Source of the DNA: Candidatus Gemmiger excrementipullorum
Lineage (GTDB): Bacteria > Bacillota > Clostridia > Oscillospirales > Ruminococcaceae
DNA length: 58,985 bases
Assembly: GCA_019115045.1 (NCBI GenBank)
Contig: DXEI01000029.1
Coordinates: 1 to 58,985 of the forward strand
Reading direction: 5' to 3'
The notes under the pieces are model-generated. The model was given only the letters and a program-made list of their open reading frames with translations. It was not told the DNA's origin and made no database searches. The position numbers were made by a program, and so were the translations under genes. Each line of letters opens with the position of its first letter. The first letter of the stretch is position 1. Shown piece after piece: positions 3,968-58,848 of the stretch.

Positions 3968-5635
3968 TCAGCCTTCACTTTCGGCCGGCGTGGCGGGGTC
4001 TGTTGTCGGTTCCGCCGCGCTCTGCGCCTCGCTGCCTGCGCCGGATCCGGTCTCGGCCACCAGGGTGTCGTCGCGCTCGCCGGCGATAAAGACGCTGACG
4101 ACGGTCTTGCCCGCGTCAAAGCGGGTGCCGGCCAGCACGTCGGTCTTGGCGACGCAGCCCTCGGCCATCGTGCCGTCGTTTTCCACGATCTGCATCTTGT
4201 ACTGGATGCCGCGCTCGTCGAGCTGTTTGCTGGCATTGGCCTGCGTAAAGCCGATGATGTCGGGCATTTCGACCAGGTTGGGGCCCTTGCTGACCACGAT
4301 CTGCAAGATCTGCCCGTCGCCGGTAGCCAGCGACCCGGCGGCCGGGTCCTGGCGGATGACGATGCCGGCCGCGATGTCGGAGCTGTTTTCCTCGGTCATG
4401 ACGATGCGGAACGAGGCATACAGGTCGTTGTCCTTGATCTCGCTGGCGTAGCGCTTGCCCACAAGGTCCGGCACGACTGCCTGCTCACTGTCCTGCGCGG
4501 GCAGCGTTTCGCTGGCGGCCGCCGGCGTGGGCGTGGGCGCCGGCGTCTGCGCGCCGTCGCTGTCCAGCAGGCTCCAGACCAGCAGGATGGCCAGCACGGC
4601 GATGACGATGAGCGAGACGCCCATGATCTTGCGGGTGCTGATCTGGTTGTCGCCGCGCTCAAACATGGCGTTGGCCACGTTGGGGTCGGTCAGGGCGCTC
4701 ATCAGTTCCGGCACGGTCTGCATGCGGCGGGCCGGGTCCAGCCGCAGCGCGCAGGCCAACACCTGCGAAAACCAGGTCGGCACGCCGGCCTCCAGGCTGT
4801 GGGCGGACTCCAGGCTGTCGCGCACTTTGCGCTGCGGCGCGGCCACCGGCGTCTGGCCGGTGACCAGGCGGTAGCAGACCGCCCCCAGGGCGTACACGTC
4901 GGTGTAGCGGCCGCTGAACTCCGCCGCCGAATACTGTTCCGGCGCGGCATAGCCGGGGTAAAGCTGGCTTTTGAGCTCGCTGCCGCCGGTGCGCAGCGCC
5001 AGCGTGCCGTAGCCGGTCAGGCGGGCGGTGCCGTCGATGGGCAGCAGGATGTTGTCCGGGCAGATGCCGCGGTGGATCAGCCCCGATTTGTGCAGCTGGG
5101 CCACGCCTTCCATGACCGGCTGCAGCAGCGTGCGGGCTTCGGCCGGGGTCAGCGTGCGGCTGCGCAGGCTGAGGTAATGCGTCAGCGTCATGCCTTTTTC
5201 GCTTTCCTCAATGCCGTAGACGGTGTTATTTTCTTCCACCACGTCCAGGATGGTGTTCAGCCCCGTGGACGGCGTCAGGCCGCGCAGGTCGTCGTACAGG
5301 TCCTTAAAGTCCATGCGGCTGGTCTTGAACAGCACTTCTTTGCCCTCTTTGGGCATCAGCATACCGTCCGCATTGCGCCCGTTGCACAGCGTGACGGGGA
5401 AATACTCTTTGATGCGCACGAACTTTCTTTCTTCGTTGAGCACGCCGCGGTAGCAAAGGCCGTCGCCGTCGGCGCTGAGGTAGCTGCCCACCGTGTAGCG
5501 GCCCGCCAGCTGGGTGCCCAGCGGCAGCGCGCCCTCGGGGTTTTGGTTTTGCAGCGGGCGCCCGCAGTGCGGGCAGGTCCCGGCGTAGCCGCCGGACAGC
5601 GGCTGCAGGCAGTGGGGGCAAAGCAGTTCAGGCAT
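3968..5635 (-). CDS. Zinc-ribbon / protein kinase-like domain / TM / PASTA-domain protein (predicted pseudokinase)
   Basis: MPELLCPHCLQPLSGGYAGTCPHCGRPL zinc ribbon; kinase-like fold with IHRGICPDNILL and GYAAPEQYS; TM segment IMGVSLIVIAVLAILLVWSLL; PASTA-like repeats VPDLVGKRYASEI..., MPDIIGFTQANASKQL.... Confidence 0.85.
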   Translation of the reverse strand: MPELLCPHCLQPLSGGYAGTCPHCGRPLQNQNPEGALPLGTQLAGRYTVGSYLSADGDGLCYRGVLNEERKFVRIKEYFPVTLCNGRNADGMLMPKEGKEVLFKTSRMDFKDLYDDLRGLTPSTGLNTILDVVEENNTVYGIEESEKGMTLTHYLSLRSRTLTPAEARTLLQPVMEGVAQLHKSGLIHRGICPDNILLPIDGTARLTGYGTLALRTGGSELKSQLYPGYAAPEQYSAAEFSGRYTDVYALGAVCYRLVTGQTPVAAPQRKVRDSLESAHSLEAGVPTWFSQVLACALRLDPARRMQTVPELMSALTDPNVANAMFERGDNQISTRKIMGVSLIVIAVLAILLVWSLLDSDGAQTPAPTPTPAAASETLPAQDSEQAVVPDLVGKRYASEIKDNDLYASFRIVMTEENSSDIAAGIVIRQDPAAGSLATGDGQILQIVVSKGPNLVEMPDIIGFTQANASKQLDERGIQYKMQIVENDGTMAEGCVAKTDVLAGTRFDAGKTVVSVFIAGERDDTLVAETGSGAGSEAQSAAEPTTDPATPAESEG

Positions 5636-50048: not shown

Positions 50049-50245
50049 AGAAGATCTCCTGACAGGGTTCGATTTGCGATACACAGTTATTATACCGCGT
50101 TTGGCGGGCAGTGGCAAGGGGCGGCGGCATCTTTTACAAGCGCGCTTTGCCGCGCGCCGGGATTTTCACTTGACGCAGCCGCCCCCGCCCCCTATAATAA
50201 TGGTAAGAAACCGGTAAAAAGCCGGAGAGAAGGAGGCACTGCCCT

Positions 50246-51085
50246 ATGTCTTGGATGATCGTATGCGATACTTCCTGCGAGATCCGGGCTTTGGAACACC
50301 CCGCACCGGGGGTGCAGTTTGCCCTGGCCCCGTTCAAGATCCGCATCGGCACGCGCGAATATGTAGACCTGCCGACGCTGAACGTGCCGCAGATGCTGCA
50401 GGCCATGACCGATTACAACGGCGCCAGCACCAGCGCCTGCCCCAGCCCCGAAGAATGGGCCGAATACTTTTTGCAGGCCGACCAGGTCATTGCGATCACG
50501 ATCAGCAGCAATCTTTCGGGCAGCTACAACGCGGCGCTCTCGGCCCGGCAGATGGTGCTGGAAGAACACCCCGAAAAGAAGATCTTTATTTTGGACACGC
50601 TGAGCTGCGGCGGCGCGCTGGGCGATGCCGCCGAGCTGGCCAACAAGCTGATCGGCGAAGGGCTCGACTTTGACGACGTCTGCTTTGCGCTGCAAAAATT
50701 TGCCGAGACGACGCATATCCTGTTTGCGCTGGCCAGCTTTGACAACCTGGCCAAAAACGGCCGCGTGAGCAAGGTCGTAGGCTTTATTGCCGGGCGGCTG
50801 AACATGCGCGTGCTGGGCCGCCGCACCCACGACGGGCGCATCGACTTTTTCTACAAGACGCGCGGCGAGACCCGCGTGCTGGCCAAAATTCTGGAACAGA
50901 TGGACGCCGACAAGTACGACGGCGTGCACCCGGTGTTCATCAGCGAGTGCAACAACCAGAACGCCGCCAGCCTGCTGGAGCACGGCATCCACGCCAAATG
51001 GCCGGAGGCCAAGGTGCGCATTTTGCCCTGCGCCGGGCTGTGCAGCTTTTACGCGCAGGACCAGGGCATCATCATCACCTACTGA
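50246..51085 (+). CDS. DegV family protein
   Basis: MSWMIVCDTSCEI; TSACPSPEEWAEYF; AITISSNLSGSYNAALSARQ; ILDTLSCGGALG. Confidence 0.92.
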   Translation: MSWMIVCDTSCEIRALEHPAPGVQFALAPFKIRIGTREYVDLPTLNVPQMLQAMTDYNGASTSACPSPEEWAEYFLQADQVIAITISSNLSGSYNAALSARQMVLEEHPEKKIFILDTLSCGGALGDAAELANKLIGEGLDFDDVCFALQKFAETTHILFALASFDNLAKNGRVSKVVGFIAGRLNMRVLGRRTHDGRIDFFYKTRGETRVLAKILEQMDADKYDGVHPVFISECNNQNAASLLEHGIHAKWPEAKVRILPCAGLCSFYAQDQGIIITY

Positions 51086-51116
51086 GAGTTCGCTGCTCCC
51101 CTGCCCGCATACGCAG

Positions 51117-51149
51117 CGCCCCGCAGCCGTTTGGCTGCGGGGCGTTTTT
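51117..51149. terminator. Rho-independent terminator
   Basis: CGCCCCGCAGCCgtttGGCTGCGGGGCGTTTTT. Confidence 0.85.
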
Positions 51150-51150
51150 G

Positions 51151-52125
51151 TTATGCTTCGTCTGCGGGTCCCTGGGCGTCGCGCGCCTGCCGGCGGCGCA
51201 GGCGCTCCACAAAGGCGGCGCGCTGCTTTTTCCAGCGGGCGTCGGCTTCCGGCGTGGGCGGGCAGGTGCAGCGGGCAAAACTCCAGTGCAGCCCGTCGCG
51301 CCGGCTGAGCTTGAACCGCACGTACCAGTGCCCGCAATACGGGCAGGTGCTGCGGGTATAGTAGCCGGTGTTGCCACGCTTGAGCCAGACTTCGTCATGC
51401 GTCAGGCGCGCGCCGCACTCGGGGCAGAAAACCGCGTTGAGTTCCTCGGCATTGCGGTAGTCGTCGTGGTCCAGGCGGTCCATGAACACCCGGACGTCCC
51501 GCGCCGCGGCGTCGGCGTCCAGCAGCGCTTCGCGCAGCTGTTCTTCCTCCGTCGGGTAGGCGGCCAGGCCCTCGGCCAGCGGCAGTTTGCGGCAGATCTT
51601 TGCGGTGTACAGCGCGTCGTCCAGCGCGTGGTGGAACGGTTCCTCCTTGGGGATGCCCAGGCGGTCGACGACGCTTTCCAGCGTCATGCCCTCGCCCTCT
51701 TTGCGCGGGTAGGCCTGCAAAAAGAGCCGCTGCAGGTCATACCAGTGCGCGGGCCAGCGCTCGTCCAGCCCGACAAGGAAGAGGTTCTGTTTGAGCACTG
51801 GCACGTCGTCGAGGCCCCACTCGGCCAGTTCGGCGTCGGGGCCGGCCCAGTCGATGAATTTTTGCAGCCCTTCGCGCATCGGCAGGCCGCTGTCCAGGTC
51901 GCCCTGCGACAGGCCGGTGACCTTGGCAATGTGGTGCTGCAATTTGCGGAAGATGCGCGGGCGCAGGTTGACTTCAAAGGTATCCAGCACGTCGCCGCGC
52001 GCGTTGATGCGCACCGCGCCGATCTGGATGATCTCGCCGCGCAGCGTCAGTTCGGCGCCGTGGTAAGTAAAGGTCTTGGGCTTATAGCCGATGTTCCATT
52101 CCAAGTCAAATACGATCAGGTTCAC
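51151..52125 (-). CDS. DEDD-family 3'-5' exonuclease-domain protein with C-terminal zinc-ribbon
   Basis: MNLIVFDLEWN, EIIQIGAVRI, FHHALDDALYTAKI; FCPECGARLTHDEVWLKRGNTGYYTRSTCPYCGHWYVRF. Confidence 0.85.
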   Translation of the reverse strand: MNLIVFDLEWNIGYKPKTFTYHGAELTLRGEIIQIGAVRINARGDVLDTFEVNLRPRIFRKLQHHIAKVTGLSQGDLDSGLPMREGLQKFIDWAGPDAELAEWGLDDVPVLKQNLFLVGLDERWPAHWYDLQRLFLQAYPRKEGEGMTLESVVDRLGIPKEEPFHHALDDALYTAKICRKLPLAEGLAAYPTEEEQLREALLDADAAARDVRVFMDRLDHDDYRNAEELNAVFCPECGARLTHDEVWLKRGNTGYYTRSTCPYCGHWYVRFKLSRRDGLHWSFARCTCPPTPEADARWKKQRAAFVERLRRRQARDAQGPADEA

Positions 52126-52129
52126 GGGT

Positions 52130-52948
52130 TCAGCGCTCCTCCTGCAAAATATAGCGTTCCACGGCCAGGCCGACGCCGTCGTGGTCGTTGTCGGCGGTCA
52201 CGAACGCCGCGGCCGCTTTCACCGGCGGCTGGGCGTTGCCCATCGCCACACCCAGGCCCGCATAGCGGATCATCGGCAAGTCGTTCCAGCCGTCGCCGCA
52301 GGCCATCAGGTTTTGCGCCGTCAGGCCCTTGCGGCGCAGCAGCAGTTCCAGCGCGGCGGCCTTCTCCACATGCAGGGGCATCGTCTCGATAAAAAACGGC
52401 TGCGAGCGGTAGATGGAAAGCCGGCCGGCAAATTCCTGCTGCATCAGTTCCTCCACGTGCGGCATATCCACCGGGTCGCCGGTCAGCAGCAGTTTGTGGA
52501 TGGGCCAGCGGATCTCGCCCGACAGGTCGGGGACTTCGCGCACCGGGATCTTGTTGATGCGCGCTTCCTCCTGCACATAGGGGCTGGCGGCGTGCTCGGT
52601 CACGATGCCTCCGGCGTCGTAGGTCAGCGCCACGGTGTTCCAGTAACGGCTGAAGGTACATACCGGTTCGATGAGTTCGGGCGGGAACGCCCGGCTGACC
52701 AGCGTCTCGCCGGTGCGGCAGTCGATGACTTTGCCGCCGTTGTAGCTTAAAATGCAGCCGCCGGTCTTTTCCAGTTCCAGCTCGCGCGCCAGCGGCCAGA
52801 TGCCCACCGTCGGCCGGCCGCTGGCCAGCACGATGCAGACGCCGCGACGCGCCGCCTGCTGCAGCGCCGCTTTGGTGCGCGGCGTGATGATCTTGTCGCG
52901 GTTGGTCAGCGTGCCGTCCAGGTCCAGTGCCAGCACTTGGTATTGCAT
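52130..52948 (-). CDS. Cof-type HAD-IIB family hydrolase
   Basis: LALDLDGTLTNRDKIITPRTKAAL; VLASGRP; LMACGDGWNDLPMIRYAGLGVAMGNAQPPVKAAAAFVTADNDHDGVG. Confidence 0.94.
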   Translation of the reverse strand: MQYQVLALDLDGTLTNRDKIITPRTKAALQQAARRGVCIVLASGRPTVGIWPLARELELEKTGGCILSYNGGKVIDCRTGETLVSRAFPPELIEPVCTFSRYWNTVALTYDAGGIVTEHAASPYVQEEARINKIPVREVPDLSGEIRWPIHKLLLTGDPVDMPHVEELMQQEFAGRLSIYRSQPFFIETMPLHVEKAAALELLLRRKGLTAQNLMACGDGWNDLPMIRYAGLGVAMGNAQPPVKAAAAFVTADNDHDGVGLAVERYILQEER

Positions 52949-53057
52949 ACAGTCGCCCCCGGGTGCATAGTTTGCCTTTATTGTACCGTAAACGCGCCGA
53001 ATGTGCAAGATGCGCGCTTGACAACGCCGCGCCCCCATGGTAAGATACCCCCAGAGT

Positions 53058-53200
53058 AAGGGAGTAGTCGGCGCCGCGTGGAGCAGACACGGCGCAGTTC
53101 TGCCAACACATTGGGCCGCACGGCCCTGGCTCGACTTGAAATGACGAGACTTACCTGTTCCGCCAACTGCGGGGCAGGTAGGTCTTTTTTGTTTCGGGCC
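53058..53200 (+). ncRNA. yybP-ykoY-type (Mn2+) riboswitch leader of mntP
   Basis: AAGGGAGTAGTCGGCGCC 5' core, then CGAGACTTACCTG...CAGGTAGGTCTTTTTT overlapping a terminator; located directly upstream of mntP. Confidence 0.8.
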
Positions 53201-53230
53201 GCGCCGTCACACAAAACGGAGGAATTTTCT

Positions 53231-53788
53231 ATGTCGTTGCTCGATCTTATCCTGATCGCGGTCAGCCTCTCGATGGATGCGTTCGCGGTCTCCATCTGCA
53301 AAGGGCTTTCGGTGCGCAGCGTCAGCGCCCGCCACGCGCTGGCCTGCGGGCTGTGGTTCGGCGGGTTTCAGGCGTTGATGCCGGCGCTGGGGTACTTCCT
53401 CGGCGGGCAGTTCTCGGCCTGGCTGACCCGGTTTGGCCCATGGGTGGCGTTTTTGCTGCTGAGCATCATCGGCGCGAACATGGTCAAGGAGAGCTTTGGC
53501 GCGGACGAAGCGCTCAACGACGACTTCTCGCCCGCCGCGATGCTGCCGCTGGCCATCGCCACCAGCATCGACGCGTTTGCCATCGGCGTCAGCTTTGCCG
53601 CCATGCAGGTGCGCATCGTACCGGCTGTGGCGCTCATCGGCTGCATCACCTGCGCGCTGTCGGCGCTGGGCGTCAAGGTGGGCGCAGTGTTCGGCGCCAA
53701 ATACCGCGCCCTGGCCGAGCGTGTGGGCGGCGCGGTGCTGATCGCCATCGGCCTGAAAACGCTGATGAGCGGTATGGGCATGCTGTAA
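53231..53788 (+). CDS. mntP: Manganese efflux pump MntP
   Basis: SLSMDAFAVSICKGLSVRSV...; LAIATSIDAFAIGVSFA; GLKTLMSGMGML. Confidence 0.95.
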   Translation: MSLLDLILIAVSLSMDAFAVSICKGLSVRSVSARHALACGLWFGGFQALMPALGYFLGGQFSAWLTRFGPWVAFLLLSIIGANMVKESFGADEALNDDFSPAAMLPLAIATSIDAFAIGVSFAAMQVRIVPAVALIGCITCALSALGVKVGAVFGAKYRALAERVGGAVLIAIGLKTLMSGMGML

Positions 53789-53797
53789 AATGCAAAG

Positions 53798-53836
53798 GGG
53801 CCGGGGCGTGCAGACTTGCGCGCCCCCGGCTTTTTT
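53798..53836 (+). terminator. Rho-independent terminator for mntP
   Basis: GGGGCCGGGGCGtgcagacttgCGCGCCCCCGGCTTTTTT. Confidence 0.75.
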
Positions 53837-53914
53837 GGCGGCACACCGCCTGTAAACGGAACGTCGGTTGCCATTTTGTGCATTCGTGCTATACTGTGGG
53901 CAAGGAGGTGGCCC

Positions 53915-54550
53915 ATGATGGATGCCCCTACGTTTGGCGCCTTTTTGGCCGAGACCCGCCGCGCCCGCGGCCTGACCCAGCGCGACCTGGCCGAACGGCT
54001 GCATGTGACCGACAAAGCCGTCAGCCGCTGGGAGCGCGGCGTCGGCCTGCCCGACATCAACACACTGGAACCGCTGTCCGACGCGCTGGGCCTGACGCTG
54101 AGCCAGCTCATGCACGCCGACCACGGCGGCGCCGCCGCACAGCCCGCGCAGACGCTGGCCGAGTTTTTTGCCCTGATGACGCCCGCGCAGATCGCCTGGG
54201 CCGATGTGCGCCGGGCGATCTTTTGGCTGACGATCGGGTTGGCGGTGTGGGCGCAGTGCACGCTGCCGTGGCAGGTCGCCATCCACTGGCATTGGGCAGA
54301 CGGGGCCTGGCACCCCGACGGCGCCGCCCCCGGCTTGTTGGCGTACCTGGGCTGTATTGCCCTGTGCGCCATGCTGCTGTGGTTTTGGCAGGGGTGGCAG
54401 CGCAATGTCATGGGCGCGGCGGCCCTGGTGTGGCTGCGGACTTTCCACCCGCGGCTGGGCGCGGCCGTGCAGCTTGCCTTGCAGATGTTTTGGATGGGCT
54501 GGGCGCTGGCCCCGGCGCTGTGCGTGGCGATGATCTTGCTGTTGAACTAG
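53915..54550 (+). CDS. XRE-family helix-turn-helix protein with C-terminal TM segments
   Basis: FGAFLAETRRARGLTQRDLAERLHVTDKAVSRWERGVGLPDINTLEPLSDALGLTLSQLM; hydrophobic C-terminus; RBS aaggaggtg. Confidence 0.9.
   Translation: MMDAPTFGAFLAETRRARGLTQRDLAERLHVTDKAVSRWERGVGLPDINTLEPLSDALGLTLSQLMHADHGGAAAQPAQTLAEFFALMTPAQIAWADVRRAIFWLTIGLAVWAQCTLPWQVAIHWHWADGAWHPDGAAPGLLAYLGCIALCAMLLWFWQGWQRNVMGAAALVWLRTFHPRLGAAVQLALQMFWMGWALAPALCVAMILLLN
54459..54549 (+). repeat. Direct repeat, copy 1 (3' end of the XRE-family gene)
   Basis: GCGCGGCCGTGCAGCTTGCCTTGCAGATGTTTTGGATGGGCTGGGCGCTGGCCCCGGCGCTGTGCGTGGCGATGATCTTGCTGTTGAACTA; identical to 57829-57919 except T/C at one position. Confidence 0.95.
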
Positions 54551-54677
54551 TTTGTTTCCCCTGCCGCCGGGCGGCCTGCCATGTCGATGCGGGCTGCCCG
54601 GCCTTGTTTTTTGGGGCGTTTCCTTCTATAATAAACAAATAACGCTGCTTACACCCTAGGGTCAGGAGGATTCCGCG

Positions 54678-56126
54678 ATGCAAAAAGCCATCTCTGTTTT
54701 GTGTGCGGCCGTTTTGCTGGCCGCCGTGACGACGTCCTGTGCAGCCACCGCCGGTACGGGCGGCAGCGCCGGCTCCGCCGCCAGCACGCCTGCCCCGGCC
54801 GCGCAGACGGAAGCGGTCACGTTGACGGTCTACTTGGAAGCCCCTTACACACAAGAAGGCGTACACTACCCTGTATATGAAGCGCTGAAAGCTTATGACG
54901 AAGCGCACCCGGAGATCGAACTGGAATTTGTTTCGCCGGTAGGTGGCGCCAACGACCCCGCCAAGCGGGAAGAACAGATCCACCAGCTCAACACCGAGAT
55001 CATTACCGGCGGCGGCCCCGACGTTTTTGTTATGGGAACGTTCCGGTATACAGACAGCAATCTCTTTCCCGATGTTGTAAAAGCGATGGGCAACCATGCG
55101 TTTCTGCCGTTGAGCGCCTATGCGCAGGCGGCGGGGTTCCAGCGCGATGCGTATATCCAGCCCGCCCTGGAAGCCGGGCAGATGGACGGGGAACAGTATA
55201 TCCTGCCATTGAGCGTTTCGGTGCCGTTGTTCGTCGGCGGAAAAGACGCGGTGGAGCAGTCTGGATTTGCTACCGAGGCTGCGGCAAAAAACCAGGCCGC
55301 TTTTTTTGAAGAATTGTACCGCACCCTGGAGGGAAACGGGGCGCAGGTCCTGTATGCGTTGAGCCTGACCAACCTTTTGCAGCAGCCATTGATCGACTAT
55401 GCGGCGGCGGAGGTATGCCTGGATACCGAGCCGGTCCGCCAGGCGTTGGAAACAGAAAAGACCTTTGCCACAAGCCAGCTCAACTTTTTCGGCAGTTATG
55501 ACCCGGCACAGATCCAGGCGATGGCAGCCGGGACCCCGCTGGGGACCGTAGAAATGTCGGACTGTGCGCTGAGCATTCTGCGGCCCTTTGCCGCACAAGG
55601 GGTGAAGGCTTTCGTCCAGGCGGTCCCCAATGAGGATGGGGGCATCACGGCGCAGATCAGTTCCTATGCGATGGCCAATGCCAATACCGCCTACCCGGAA
55701 CAAGCGGCGGCTTTGCTGTATTACCTGATGAGCGCAGAATGCCAGGATGCAGCAGCCTACCCCTCTACTACCGAACAACTCCCGGTGCGGGTAGCAAGCC
55801 TGGGAAATGCGCTGCAAAGCTTTCACCAGTTTATCGTCTACGATGCTTCCCATGAGACGGTGAGCGCGGAGGATATCGCGTTCCGCGAAAGCGTGTTTGG
55901 GGCCGATCTGAGCGATGACATGGTCCAGGCATTGCAGAACGCCTGCGAGAGGGTAAGCGCGGCACATTTCCATTCGGTTTGGGAGCACGCGCTCCAGCTG
56001 GGGCAGAGCGAGACCGGGGACGACCTGCTGACGGAAGCAATGAATGAATATCTGTATGGCGACAAACCCCTGGACCAGTTGATCGAAGAATTGACGCCGC
56101 GGCTGCAGATGTACCTGGATGAATAA
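54678..56126 (+). CDS. Sugar ABC transporter extracellular solute-binding lipoprotein
   Basis: Lipobox AVTTSC; YEALKAYDEAHPEIELEFVSPVGG...EIITGGGPDVFVMG; followed by two permease genes. Confidence 0.88.
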   Translation: MQKAISVLCAAVLLAAVTTSCAATAGTGGSAGSAASTPAPAAQTEAVTLTVYLEAPYTQEGVHYPVYEALKAYDEAHPEIELEFVSPVGGANDPAKREEQIHQLNTEIITGGGPDVFVMGTFRYTDSNLFPDVVKAMGNHAFLPLSAYAQAAGFQRDAYIQPALEAGQMDGEQYILPLSVSVPLFVGGKDAVEQSGFATEAAAKNQAAFFEELYRTLEGNGAQVLYALSLTNLLQQPLIDYAAAEVCLDTEPVRQALETEKTFATSQLNFFGSYDPAQIQAMAAGTPLGTVEMSDCALSILRPFAAQGVKAFVQAVPNEDGGITAQISSYAMANANTAYPEQAAALLYYLMSAECQDAAAYPSTTEQLPVRVASLGNALQSFHQFIVYDASHETVSAEDIAFRESVFGADLSDDMVQALQNACERVSAAHFHSVWEHALQLGQSETGDDLLTEAMNEYLYGDKPLDQLIEELTPRLQMYLDE

Positions 56127-56136
56127 CGAGGCTGCC

Positions 56137-57003
56137 ATGCACAAAATCTGCAAAAAGATTGGGATCGCCCAGCGAAACCGCCGCTTGGGCTGGCTGCTGC
56201 TGGCGCCGGCGCTGCTGGCGTTTGGGGTCAGCTATCTGCTGCCGTTTGCCATCGCATTGGTCCGCAGTTTTTTCCGCGGCATGGGCGGTGAGTTCGCCGG
56301 GTTGGAAAATTACGCGGACCTGCTGCGCAACCAAACCTTCCAGCTGGCGCTGCGCAACCTGCTCTTGCTGTGGTGCTTTGTTTTGCCGCTGAACCTTGTG
56401 GCGGGCTTTCTGCTGGCGCTGCTCTGCCACCGGTCCCCCTGGCAAAAACACCGTCTGCTGTTTTTCCTGCCGGCTGTGCTGCCGGCCGCCGCAACGGTCT
56501 CGATCGTATACGACTGTCTGGGCAGTTTTTCGGCAGAAGGCTGGCTTCCCTTTGGGGGCGCCGGCTGGGCAAACGGCCCGGCGGCCGGTTTCGTGTTTGC
56601 TTTGCTGGTCCTGTGGAAAGGGTTGGGGTATACCGTACTGGTCCTCACCGCAGCGCTGTCCTCCCTCCCGGTGGAATATACGCAGGCCGCCCAGGTGGAA
56701 GGCGCTGCATTTGGCGCCATAGTGCGCCGCATCTACCTGCCGCTGCTGCGCCCCGCTTTTGCCCTGTGCGCCCTGCTGGCCGTATACAATGCGTTCCGCT
56801 GTTTCCGTGAAGCGCTGATGCTGGGCGGCACACACCCGACGGGATCCCTGTACAGTTTACAGCACTTTCTACAAAACAACTTCACCAACATGAATTTTGC
56901 CCGCCTGGAAGCCGCCTGCGTATTGCTGATTGCTGTGCCTGCGCTGGCCGGCGTGGCGCTGCTGGCCCAGATGACGCGGCAGCGCCGCAGGAAGGAAGGG
57001 TGA
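56137..57003 (+). CDS. Sugar ABC transporter permease (MalF type)
   Basis: TM helices; QAAQVEGAAFGAIVRRIYLPLLRPAF (EAA-like loop). Start at 56119 also possible. Confidence 0.9.
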   Translation: MHKICKKIGIAQRNRRLGWLLLAPALLAFGVSYLLPFAIALVRSFFRGMGGEFAGLENYADLLRNQTFQLALRNLLLLWCFVLPLNLVAGFLLALLCHRSPWQKHRLLFFLPAVLPAAATVSIVYDCLGSFSAEGWLPFGGAGWANGPAAGFVFALLVLWKGLGYTVLVLTAALSSLPVEYTQAAQVEGAAFGAIVRRIYLPLLRPAFALCALLAVYNAFRCFREALMLGGTHPTGSLYSLQHFLQNNFTNMNFARLEAACVLLIAVPALAGVALLAQMTRQRRRKEG

Positions 57004-57761
57004 CCGCCATGCGCCGGAGTTCTTGCAAAAAAGCGCTGTTTTTTTTGCTGTTAGCGCTTTACCTGCTCCCCTGCCTTGCGCAGTTTTCTTTTCTTTGGGA
57101 AGCCGCGCCCGCGCCTGCAGACGCAGAAAGCGGCCCCTTGACGGCCGCATTTGGCCTGGCGTACCGCAACAGCTGCCTGCTGGCCGCCGCCAATTTGTTT
57201 TTGCAGTGGCTTGTAAACCTCCCGGCCGGGCTGGCCCTCGCCAAACTGTTGCCGCAGCGCACCGCAAACAAGGGTTTGGCGCTGTGCCTGCTGCTGATGC
57301 TGCTGCCACAGCAGGCGCTGCTTCTGCCGCAGTACCTGGTTCTGGATGCGCTGCATCTGCTGGACCGCCTGGGCGGGCTGGTGCTTCTTTCTGCGTTCCA
57401 GCCGTTTCTTGTGCTGCTGTATTGGGCCGGTTTCCGCCAGATCGAGACCAGCCTGTTGGAAGCCGCCGCTTGCGAAGGCGCGACCGGCCCGCAAACGTTT
57501 TGGCATATCTGCCTGCCTTTGCTGACGCCGTACCTGCTGGCCGGCAGTTTGTTGTCCTTTGCCGAAAGCTGGGCCATGCTGGAACAGCCCATGACCTTTT
57601 TGCGGGACGGCGCCTGCCCCCTGCTGAGCACCTACTTCCTGCAAACTTCCCGTGTCTCGGGCGGTGCCGTGCAGGTGCTTTTGAGCGTTCTGCCGCTGCT
57701 GGCCCTGTTTTTCTGGGCCGCGGCTGCCCAGCGGCGCACGGACAAAGGCGCCCTTATGTAA
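57000..57761 (+). CDS. Sugar ABC transporter permease (MalG type)
   Basis: LLEAAACEGATGPQTFWHICLPLLTPYLLAG (EAA loop); overlaps previous stop. Confidence 0.9.
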   Translation: MTAMRRSSCKKALFFLLLALYLLPCLAQFSFLWEAAPAPADAESGPLTAAFGLAYRNSCLLAAANLFLQWLVNLPAGLALAKLLPQRTANKGLALCLLLMLLPQQALLLPQYLVLDALHLLDRLGGLVLLSAFQPFLVLLYWAGFRQIETSLLEAAACEGATGPQTFWHICLPLLTPYLLAGSLLSFAESWAMLEQPMTFLRDGACPLLSTYFLQTSRVSGGAVQVLLSVLPLLALFFWAAAAQRRTDKGALM

Positions 57762-57828
57762 GGCGATGTCCCGGCCTGCCCTGCTGATCTCGCCACGCGA
57801 AGTCCTGTGAAAGCCCCTGTCTGCGCCT

Positions 57829-57919
57829 GCGCGGCCGTGCAGCTTGCCTTGCAGATGTTTTGGATGGGCTGGGCGCTGGCCCCGGCGCTGTGCGTGGCGA
57901 TGATCCTGCTGTTGAACTA
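57829..57919 (+). repeat. Direct repeat, copy 2 (orphan copy of the XRE-gene 3' end)
   Basis: Same sequence as 54459-54549, ending in TAA where copy 1 ends in TAG; no upstream XRE coding sequence here. Confidence 0.95.
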
Positions 57920-57967
57920 AGGCCGCCTTGGGCAGGCCGAACGCGTGTATGAATATACCCGCATACC

Positions 57968-58003
57968 AACAGCCCCGGCACTGAAAACAGTGCCGGGGCT
58001 GTT
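57968..58003. terminator. Strong hairpin (16-bp perfect stem), no clear U-tract
   Basis: AACAGCCCCGGCACTGaaaaCAGTGCCGGGGCTGTT. Confidence 0.55.
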
Positions 58004-58059
58004 ACCTATACCGTTCAAAAATTCCTGCTGCCATTTTTCATCGGCTTGCCCGACGCCCG

Positions 58060-58455
58060 TTAGCGAAAGAAGAGGATCCCTCCCCCTTGTGAAAACTGAT
58101 AAAAGAGTTCGCCATCTTGTTGAAAGGCACCTTTCGGGCCGTACCAATCCGTAGTCTGGAAGAGATAAGAATACGCTTTACTGAAATCAAGAAGTGCGCC
58201 CTGGAGCCCGTTAAAGTAAACAATCGTGATCGGAACAGTTGTTCCATCGCGTTCGATTTCCCCATAAGAGTAGGCCCGAGATTCCCGCTCTGTTACAGCT
58301 ATACAAGCATGTGCTTCTTCACACACCCAAACACTATTCAGAAAATTATAGGGCTTATTCCGATCTGGATTGCACCCGCCGAGCAACAACATAACCGCAA
58401 CGCCAAGAACAATTGACAATAACAAGCGACACTTCTTATTTGACAATGATCCCAT
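58060..58455 (-). CDS. Hypothetical lipoprotein
   Basis: MGSLSNKKCRLLLSIVLGVAVMLLLGGCNPD: signal peptide with lipobox LLGGC; lower GC than surroundings. Confidence 0.65.
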   Translation of the reverse strand: MGSLSNKKCRLLLSIVLGVAVMLLLGGCNPDRNKPYNFLNSVWVCEEAHACIAVTERESRAYSYGEIERDGTTVPITIVYFNGLQGALLDFSKAYSYLFQTTDWYGPKGAFQQDGELFYQFSQGGGILFFR

Positions 58456-58733
58456 ATACAAATTCTGCCCCTCCCATTGTTCCAATCAAATCAGTTGCGT
58501 TTTCCGATGCGTTGTGATTCTATGTAACGTACTGATTTTCTTTTTTCTGCGTAAGAAACGGTTATCGTTAGGGCGAATCAATTCAGAGCGCCAGGGCTCA
58601 CACTACTCATAGTCTACACTTCTGTTCTTGACGGTTTCAAGTACCAAATTGCCCAAAGAATCGCAGCTATAATTGGTCAGTTCTTTGGCCTGCCAGCGGG
58701 CAAGTATGGCGGATCATCCTGTTTTTGCATGCA

Positions 58734-58771
58734 AAAAAGCACCCGCTCCTTTACAGAGCAGGCGCTTTTTG
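58734..58771 (-). terminator. Terminator downstream of tRNA-Glu
   Basis: Minus: AAAAAGCGCCTGCTCtgtaaagGAGCGGGTGCTTTTTTGC. Confidence 0.75.
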
Positions 58772-58773
58772 CT

Positions 58774-58848
58774 TGGTGACCCGTGCGGGAATCGAACCCA
58801 CGTTAACGGCGTGAGAGGCCGCTGTCTTAACCGCTTGACCAACGGGCC
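58774..58848 (-). tRNA. tRNA-Glu (anticodon CUC)
   Basis: Minus: GGCCCGTTGGTCAAGCGGTTAAGACAGCGGCCTCTCACGCCGTTAACGTGGGTTCGATTCCCGCACGGGTCACCA; cloverleaf stems pair, encoded CCA. Confidence 0.95.

Follow-up and report, generated by a model that had tools for sequence, protein, structure and literature searches.

The locus examined here raises the question of how a small sugar ABC transporter operon came to lie between an intact gene and a second copy of that gene's 3' end. The window, by which we mean the whole 58,985-nucleotide stretch of Candidatus Gemmiger excrementipullorum DNA that was analysed, contains a gene for an XRE-type HTH protein with a hydrophobic C-terminal half (53918..54550, + strand; HTH_3 9e-14). 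This gene is intact, and its product is 94% identical in amino acid sequence to the ortholog in a sister species. Its conserved left neighbour is mntP, encoding a putative Mn efflux pump (53231..53788, + strand; Pfam Mntp 3e-44). Copy 1 of a direct repeat (54459..54549, + strand) covers the XRE C terminus together with the TA of the stop codon, and copy 2 (57829..57919, + strand) carries the native downstream flank of the gene. The copies are identical at 90 of 91 positions, the sole mismatch being a T/C difference at 54536/57906, 14 bases before the end of the block. The first base after the block also differs, so that copy 1 ends in a TAG stop and copy 2 in TAA, and the last base of the XRE stop TAG is supplied by the first base of the insert. 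The original prediction had described a repeat of 89-91 bp at these positions with one internal mismatch and the TAG/TAA difference, and both its coordinates and its mismatch were reproduced.

The repeat is specific to this locus. About 3e-35 chance pairs of its 77-bp exact core are expected in the window, and a search of the whole genome with the 91-mer recovered only the two full copies and otherwise a 23-bp chance match. The first 53 bases of the 91-mer had no match in viral contigs. Identity between the copies breaks off abruptly at both ends, and, as had been claimed for copy 2, no XRE sequence lies upstream of it (57762-57828).

We compared the locus with that of the sister species Gemmiger BRZ_NS__bin84 (CALXHR01; here G014), an uncultured MAG that is approximately 96% identical and is represented by a 68% complete draft. 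The predicted counterpart of the occupied site, an empty site with a single repeat copy, was looked for in relatives and found in this genome: G014 has the locus without the ABC operon and with a single 91-mer that ends in TAA and is followed by the flank seen at copy 2 of the window. Window positions 50163-54549 align to G014 at 95.7% and are contiguous there with the match of 57829-58163, which corresponds to L024 6359-6693 of G014 at 92.5%; the sequence at 57920..58163 (+ strand) is thus native to the region downstream of XRE, being contiguous with XRE in G014. A close relative of the operon was not detected in the 68% complete G014 draft. In at least seven further Gemmiger species no operon was found behind XRE in the downstream sequence examined, so that the operon is not, as might have been the case, carried by all relatives at this position without a repeat. 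At least seven Gemmiger species besides G014 have mntP upstream of XRE, and the complete genome of G048 has the order mntP, XRE, cupin gene, tRNA-Glu, with no operon. No other cargo was seen at the XRE-end site in the relatives examined. XRE itself is poorly conserved in the genus, orthologs being present in 12 Gemmiger genomes including that of the window, or about one-third of the genus.

By this comparison, positions 54550-57828 are an insertion at the 3' end of XRE that leaves XRE whole. The empty site in G014, together with the lack of the operon behind XRE in other species, assigns the insertion to this species' own branch or, at the earliest, to the stem that it shares with G014. The insertion is probably recent. 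The occupied junction is carried by one draft genome only.

The inserted islet (54550..57828, + strand) has a length of 3279 bp, and neither the orthologous site in G014 nor the region behind XRE in other relatives contains it. Immediately following the XRE stop lies a stable GC-rich hairpin with a U-rich stretch (54558..54616, + strand; -37 kcal/mol, z -2.6), a probable terminator brought by the islet. An equally stable structure arose in 2 of 200 shuffles, and a strict consensus terminator scan did not rise above background. A derivation of the left end of the islet from the XRE terminator of a relative was considered and rejected, the 14-bp match to the XRE terminator of G020 being too short and GC-rich. 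The hairpin is followed by genes for an ABC extracellular solute-binding protein of 482 aa (54678..56126, + strand; SBP_bac_1 2.5e-7), a UgpA-like ABC permease (56119..57003, + strand; BPD_transp_1 1.4e-6, with UgpA/GlcT models at about 9e-11, far under their cut-offs), and a second ABC permease (57000..57761, + strand; BPD_transp_1 4.7e-11). The profile of the binding protein matches the solved binding proteins 7x0o (CbpC) and 6lce, and no NCBIfam model matched an islet gene at its cut-off. A family 1 binding protein with two BPD_transp_1 permeases is the gene set of a CUT1-type carbohydrate ABC importer, and such an importer would borrow an ATPase encoded elsewhere. The islet contains these three ABC genes only, with no gene for an ATPase, integrase, transposase or transfer function between its ends, which bears out the earlier statement that no integrase is present. 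The operon had also been described as lower in GC than its neighbours. This is correct but modest, the islet having a GC content of 0.606 compared to 0.625 for the 10 kb to its left and 0.639 for the whole window; the contrast is clearer in GC3, which is 0.70-0.76 for the operon vs 0.84-0.89 for its neighbours in the window.

Related operons were found in other Gemmiger genomes, and their location differs in every relative that carries one. The operon of G003 is 88% identical to that of the window at the DNA level over 2.8 kb and starts 20 bp behind aguB, where G007 and G023 show no interruption. For comparison, the window and G003 have mostly 72-85% identity across homologous stretches of the 7.8-kb block to the left of XRE. 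G015 has an HTH gene and the operon behind tRNA-Lys; the 3' end of this tRNA is where a block common to G015 and G048 begins, with a sharp limit on the block's other side, and the G048 operon adjoins the same tRNA-Lys 3'-end sequence. G044 and G023 have the operon at further, different sites. The GC3 of the operon in G048, G015 and G044 is 0.35-0.54 vs 0.82-0.87 for its surroundings. Flanking direct repeats were not found at the operon's other locations in these relatives, and a search of plasmids, phages and viral contigs found nothing close to the operon, the one match being to a phage record at 26% identity. Taken together, the differing locations, the 88% vs 72-85% identity, and the low GC3 indicate a patchily distributed, horizontally spread islet, which appears to be partly host-adjusted in the species of the window.

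Two candidates suggested by these other locations were rejected. The aguB locus was considered as the home site of the operon, and no close aguB ortholog was found in the window's genome or in G014. A serine recombinase beside the operon in G048, with a relative near tRNA-Glu in G014, was considered as a mobiliser. We rejected a direct link because the HTH-operon unit of G015 lies directly behind an intact tRNA-Lys at the same junction with no recombinase between, and because the G014 recombinase is several kb from XRE; the recombinases are apparently separate insertions at tRNA ends.

The origin of the duplicated tail can be approached from the few differences between its copies. Copy 1 and copy 2 differ at 1 of 91 positions, copy 1 and the G014 sequence at 4 of 91, and copy 2 and the G014 sequence at 5 of 91, with the two copies of the window having the same base at each of the four positions that set them both apart from G014. 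Since the copies share four bases against G014 and copy 2 sits on the native flank, the duplicated tail is the recipient's own or that of a conspecific, a strain closer than the sister species, and copy 2 is the native XRE end. The original prediction had derived copy 2 from a functional homologue in another genome. This is not supported, as is argued by the junction of copy 2 to a native flank shared with G014 and by the agreement of the copies at the four positions.

From these data we favor, with about even confidence, a model in which a 3.28-kb horizontally spread sugar-ABC operon inserted behind XRE in the lineage of this species and duplicated the last 91 bp of XRE. The islet would be a passenger without mobility genes, and its entry would most likely have been a recombination event, homology-assisted or an illegitimate join with a 91-bp overlap, that made use of the XRE tail of the recipient itself. 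The result would be an XRE kept whole to the left of the islet and a superfluous copy of its tail to the right, and recombination between the 91-bp repeats would now be able to remove the islet precisely and bring back an arrangement like that of G014. In a survey of approximately 1.0 Mb of the same genome, the hits were for the most part REP-like repeats between genes, copies of tRNAs, and paralogues. The surveyed sequence held no second case of a gene tail duplicated around cargo, which suggests a one-off event.

Several points count against this model. Transposons and IS composites carry a transposase and terminal inverted repeats and generate target duplications of 2-14 bp. The islet has no transposase gene, no pair of inverted repeats bounding it, and a duplication of 91 bp. 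Transposases are not known to yield a duplication of this length, which far exceeds those they leave at their targets, so the structure has no simple explanation in a standard insertion mechanism. The position of the junction inside the stop codon fits the expectation for a gene-end attachment site and counts against a homology-assisted or illegitimate join. In addition, a conspecific element bearing an attP would leave the same pattern of identity as the recipient's own tail.

These last points lead to site-specific integration, which we consider possible though on the unlikely side. According to this explanation, the 91-bp XRE tail represents the attL and attR of a non-autonomous or decayed CIME-like element whose integrase acted in trans. 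The identity block ends within the stop codon so that XRE stays whole, the empty site has a single att-like copy, and the T/C difference at 54536/57906 together with the third base of the stop would be consistent with a crossover within the final 13 bp. Tyrosine integrases encoded on contigs C63 and C60 and serine recombinases on C61, C118 and C153 could act in trans. Against this, 54550-57828 contains no integrase gene, no other such cargo occupies the site in the relatives examined, the target gene is found in only about one-third of the genus, and the operon's other locations in relatives lack flanking direct repeats. The absence of other elements at the site, the poorly conserved target, and the lack of repeats elsewhere are better fitted by a homology-assisted or illegitimate join. 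The earlier proposal of a gene-3'-end integration that keeps the frame therefore stands in its first part, there being an insertion at the XRE 3' end, an intact XRE and an empty site, whereas a site-specific mechanism draws no positive support beyond that position.

A potential concern with the empty site is whether it is original. If the islet predated the split between this species and G014, and recombination between the 91-bp repeats then removed it from G014, the empty site would be secondary. Deletion between the repeats gives exactly the structure found in G014, and one sister species cannot set the direction. An older duplication, however, should have diverged more than the observed 1 of 91 positions, compared to 4-5 of 91 to G014. 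A duplication predating the split would be expected to show approximately four differences between the copies, and the probability of one or none is about 0.09, a value that argues weakly; gene conversion could also hide older divergence. The comparison thus weakly suggests that the duplication is younger than the split. More distant species also have no operon behind XRE, which places the insertion on the stem of the two species or later. We consider loss in G014 improbable.

A more general possibility, to which we give little credence, is that the operon belongs to a lineage of recombinase-less islets that repeatedly enter Gemmiger gene 3' ends (XRE here, aguB in G003, tRNA-Lys in G015) by host or trans-acting recombination able to duplicate a gene tail. 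An artefact of assembly or strain mixing is very unlikely: although the window comes from a draft genome of 157 contigs, the islet lies inside a 59-kb contig, the copies have a distinguishing base and four distinct flanks, and the native flank of copy 2 is independently confirmed by G014. Tandem duplication of XRE followed by decay of the second copy would explain the existence of a second tail but is scarcely credible, since copy 2 does not extend into a remnant of a second full-length XRE: identity breaks off sharply at 57829, nothing of XRE precedes that point, and each copy has a downstream flank of its own.

Among known systems, the best functional analogue is the H47 island of E. coli, which encodes no recombinase, lies between imperfect direct repeats, is matched by empty sites in other strains, and undergoes RecA-independent excision (PMC5426353). 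H47 is 13 kb in size with repeats of 146/148 bp at 77% identity, and its excision was detected by PCR, for which its authors did not fully exclude an artefact (PMC5426353). Like H47 and similar recombinase-less islands (PMC5426353), the islet is repeat-flanked chromosomal cargo with no recombinase and with an empty site in a relative, the single-repeat site of G014; it differs in having repeats of 91 bp at 99% identity and an ABC operon as cargo, and its mobility is hypothetical. The islet also resembles a cis-mobilizable element, or CIME (defined in PMC5704250), in that its cargo lies between att-like direct repeats without integration or transfer genes, a resemblance of structure only. No sign of descent from an ICE or IME and no related integrase were seen, and no element with an XRE-tail att site was seen in XRE-bearing genomes, plasmids or viral contigs. 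Integrase-encoding islands, ICEs and IMEs encode a site-specific recombinase, which the islet does not, while the direct repeats at a gene end and the single copy in the empty site agree, in structure only, with the attL/attR and attB of such elements. SGI1 at trmE (PMC8409611) likewise inserts at the 3' end of a protein gene and leaves the gene whole, but compared to SGI1-type islands (PMC8409611) the islet has no integrase, is only 3.3 kb, and targets a patchily present XRE gene. Homology-facilitated illegitimate recombination captures foreign DNA through a homologous junction paired with an illegitimate one and does not depend on a recombinase encoded by the cargo; it had been described for three species with natural competence, and the cited study reports it for conjugation in E. 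coli (PMC3240628), and we infer that it may apply to the islet.

By structure, then, the islet can be called H47-like or CIME-like. The insertion is real, tidy, and a fairly ordinary gene acquisition of a known kind, of value for its pairing of an occupied with an empty site and for an operon that changes location, rather than for a new mechanism. A clean insertion with an orthologous empty site allows one to ask how small metabolic operons enter the chromosomes of gut bacteria without a recombinase of their own, and the case also bears on whether long flanking repeats make such a gain reversible.

Several minor observations were made on the sequence to the right of the islet and on the recombinases. 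An ORF of 141 aa (58060-58485, - strand) is a chimera relative to G014, with a break at 58163/58166. Its N-terminal part matches a lipoprotein-like gene of G014 (L024 9136-9840) and its C-terminal end matches a second G014 gene (L024 6590-7852); the 2.8 kb between the G014 matches (L024 6693-9518) is either missing from the window or inserted in G014. A serine recombinase of 539 aa in G014 (L024 9964-11583, - strand) occupies the place of the 3' end of the window's tRNA-Glu (ctc) (58700-58790), and its C-terminal codons are sequence common to the trailer of that tRNA-Glu, as if the attachment site were inside its own reading frame. The related G048 serine recombinase (L063 5981-7543, + strand) adjoins the tRNA-Lys 3'-end sequence and has the tRNA end inside its C-terminal codons; G015 has an intact tRNA-Lys at the same junction (L064 1-260) and is missing the recombinase. 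On the opposite strand of the DNA next to the G015 operon (L064 about 4100-4450) is what appears, as judged by eye, to be a MobC-like mobilization protein.

Dispersed repeats were also noted. A sequence of approximately 80-95 bp, possibly coding for the C termini of a family of short proteins, is repeated in the window's genome (window 58600-58740), in G014 (L024 8598-8692 and 9954-10051), and several times in G048 (C1, at about 228806, 230240 and 235256). The window's genome (G000) contains many GC-rich, REP-like intergenic dispersed repeats of 60-150 bp, on contigs C4, C14, C21, C50, C55 and C57 (L129, L137, L144, L195, L200 and L201), and the same repeat test in a sampled 400 kb of G048 found one repeat pair only.
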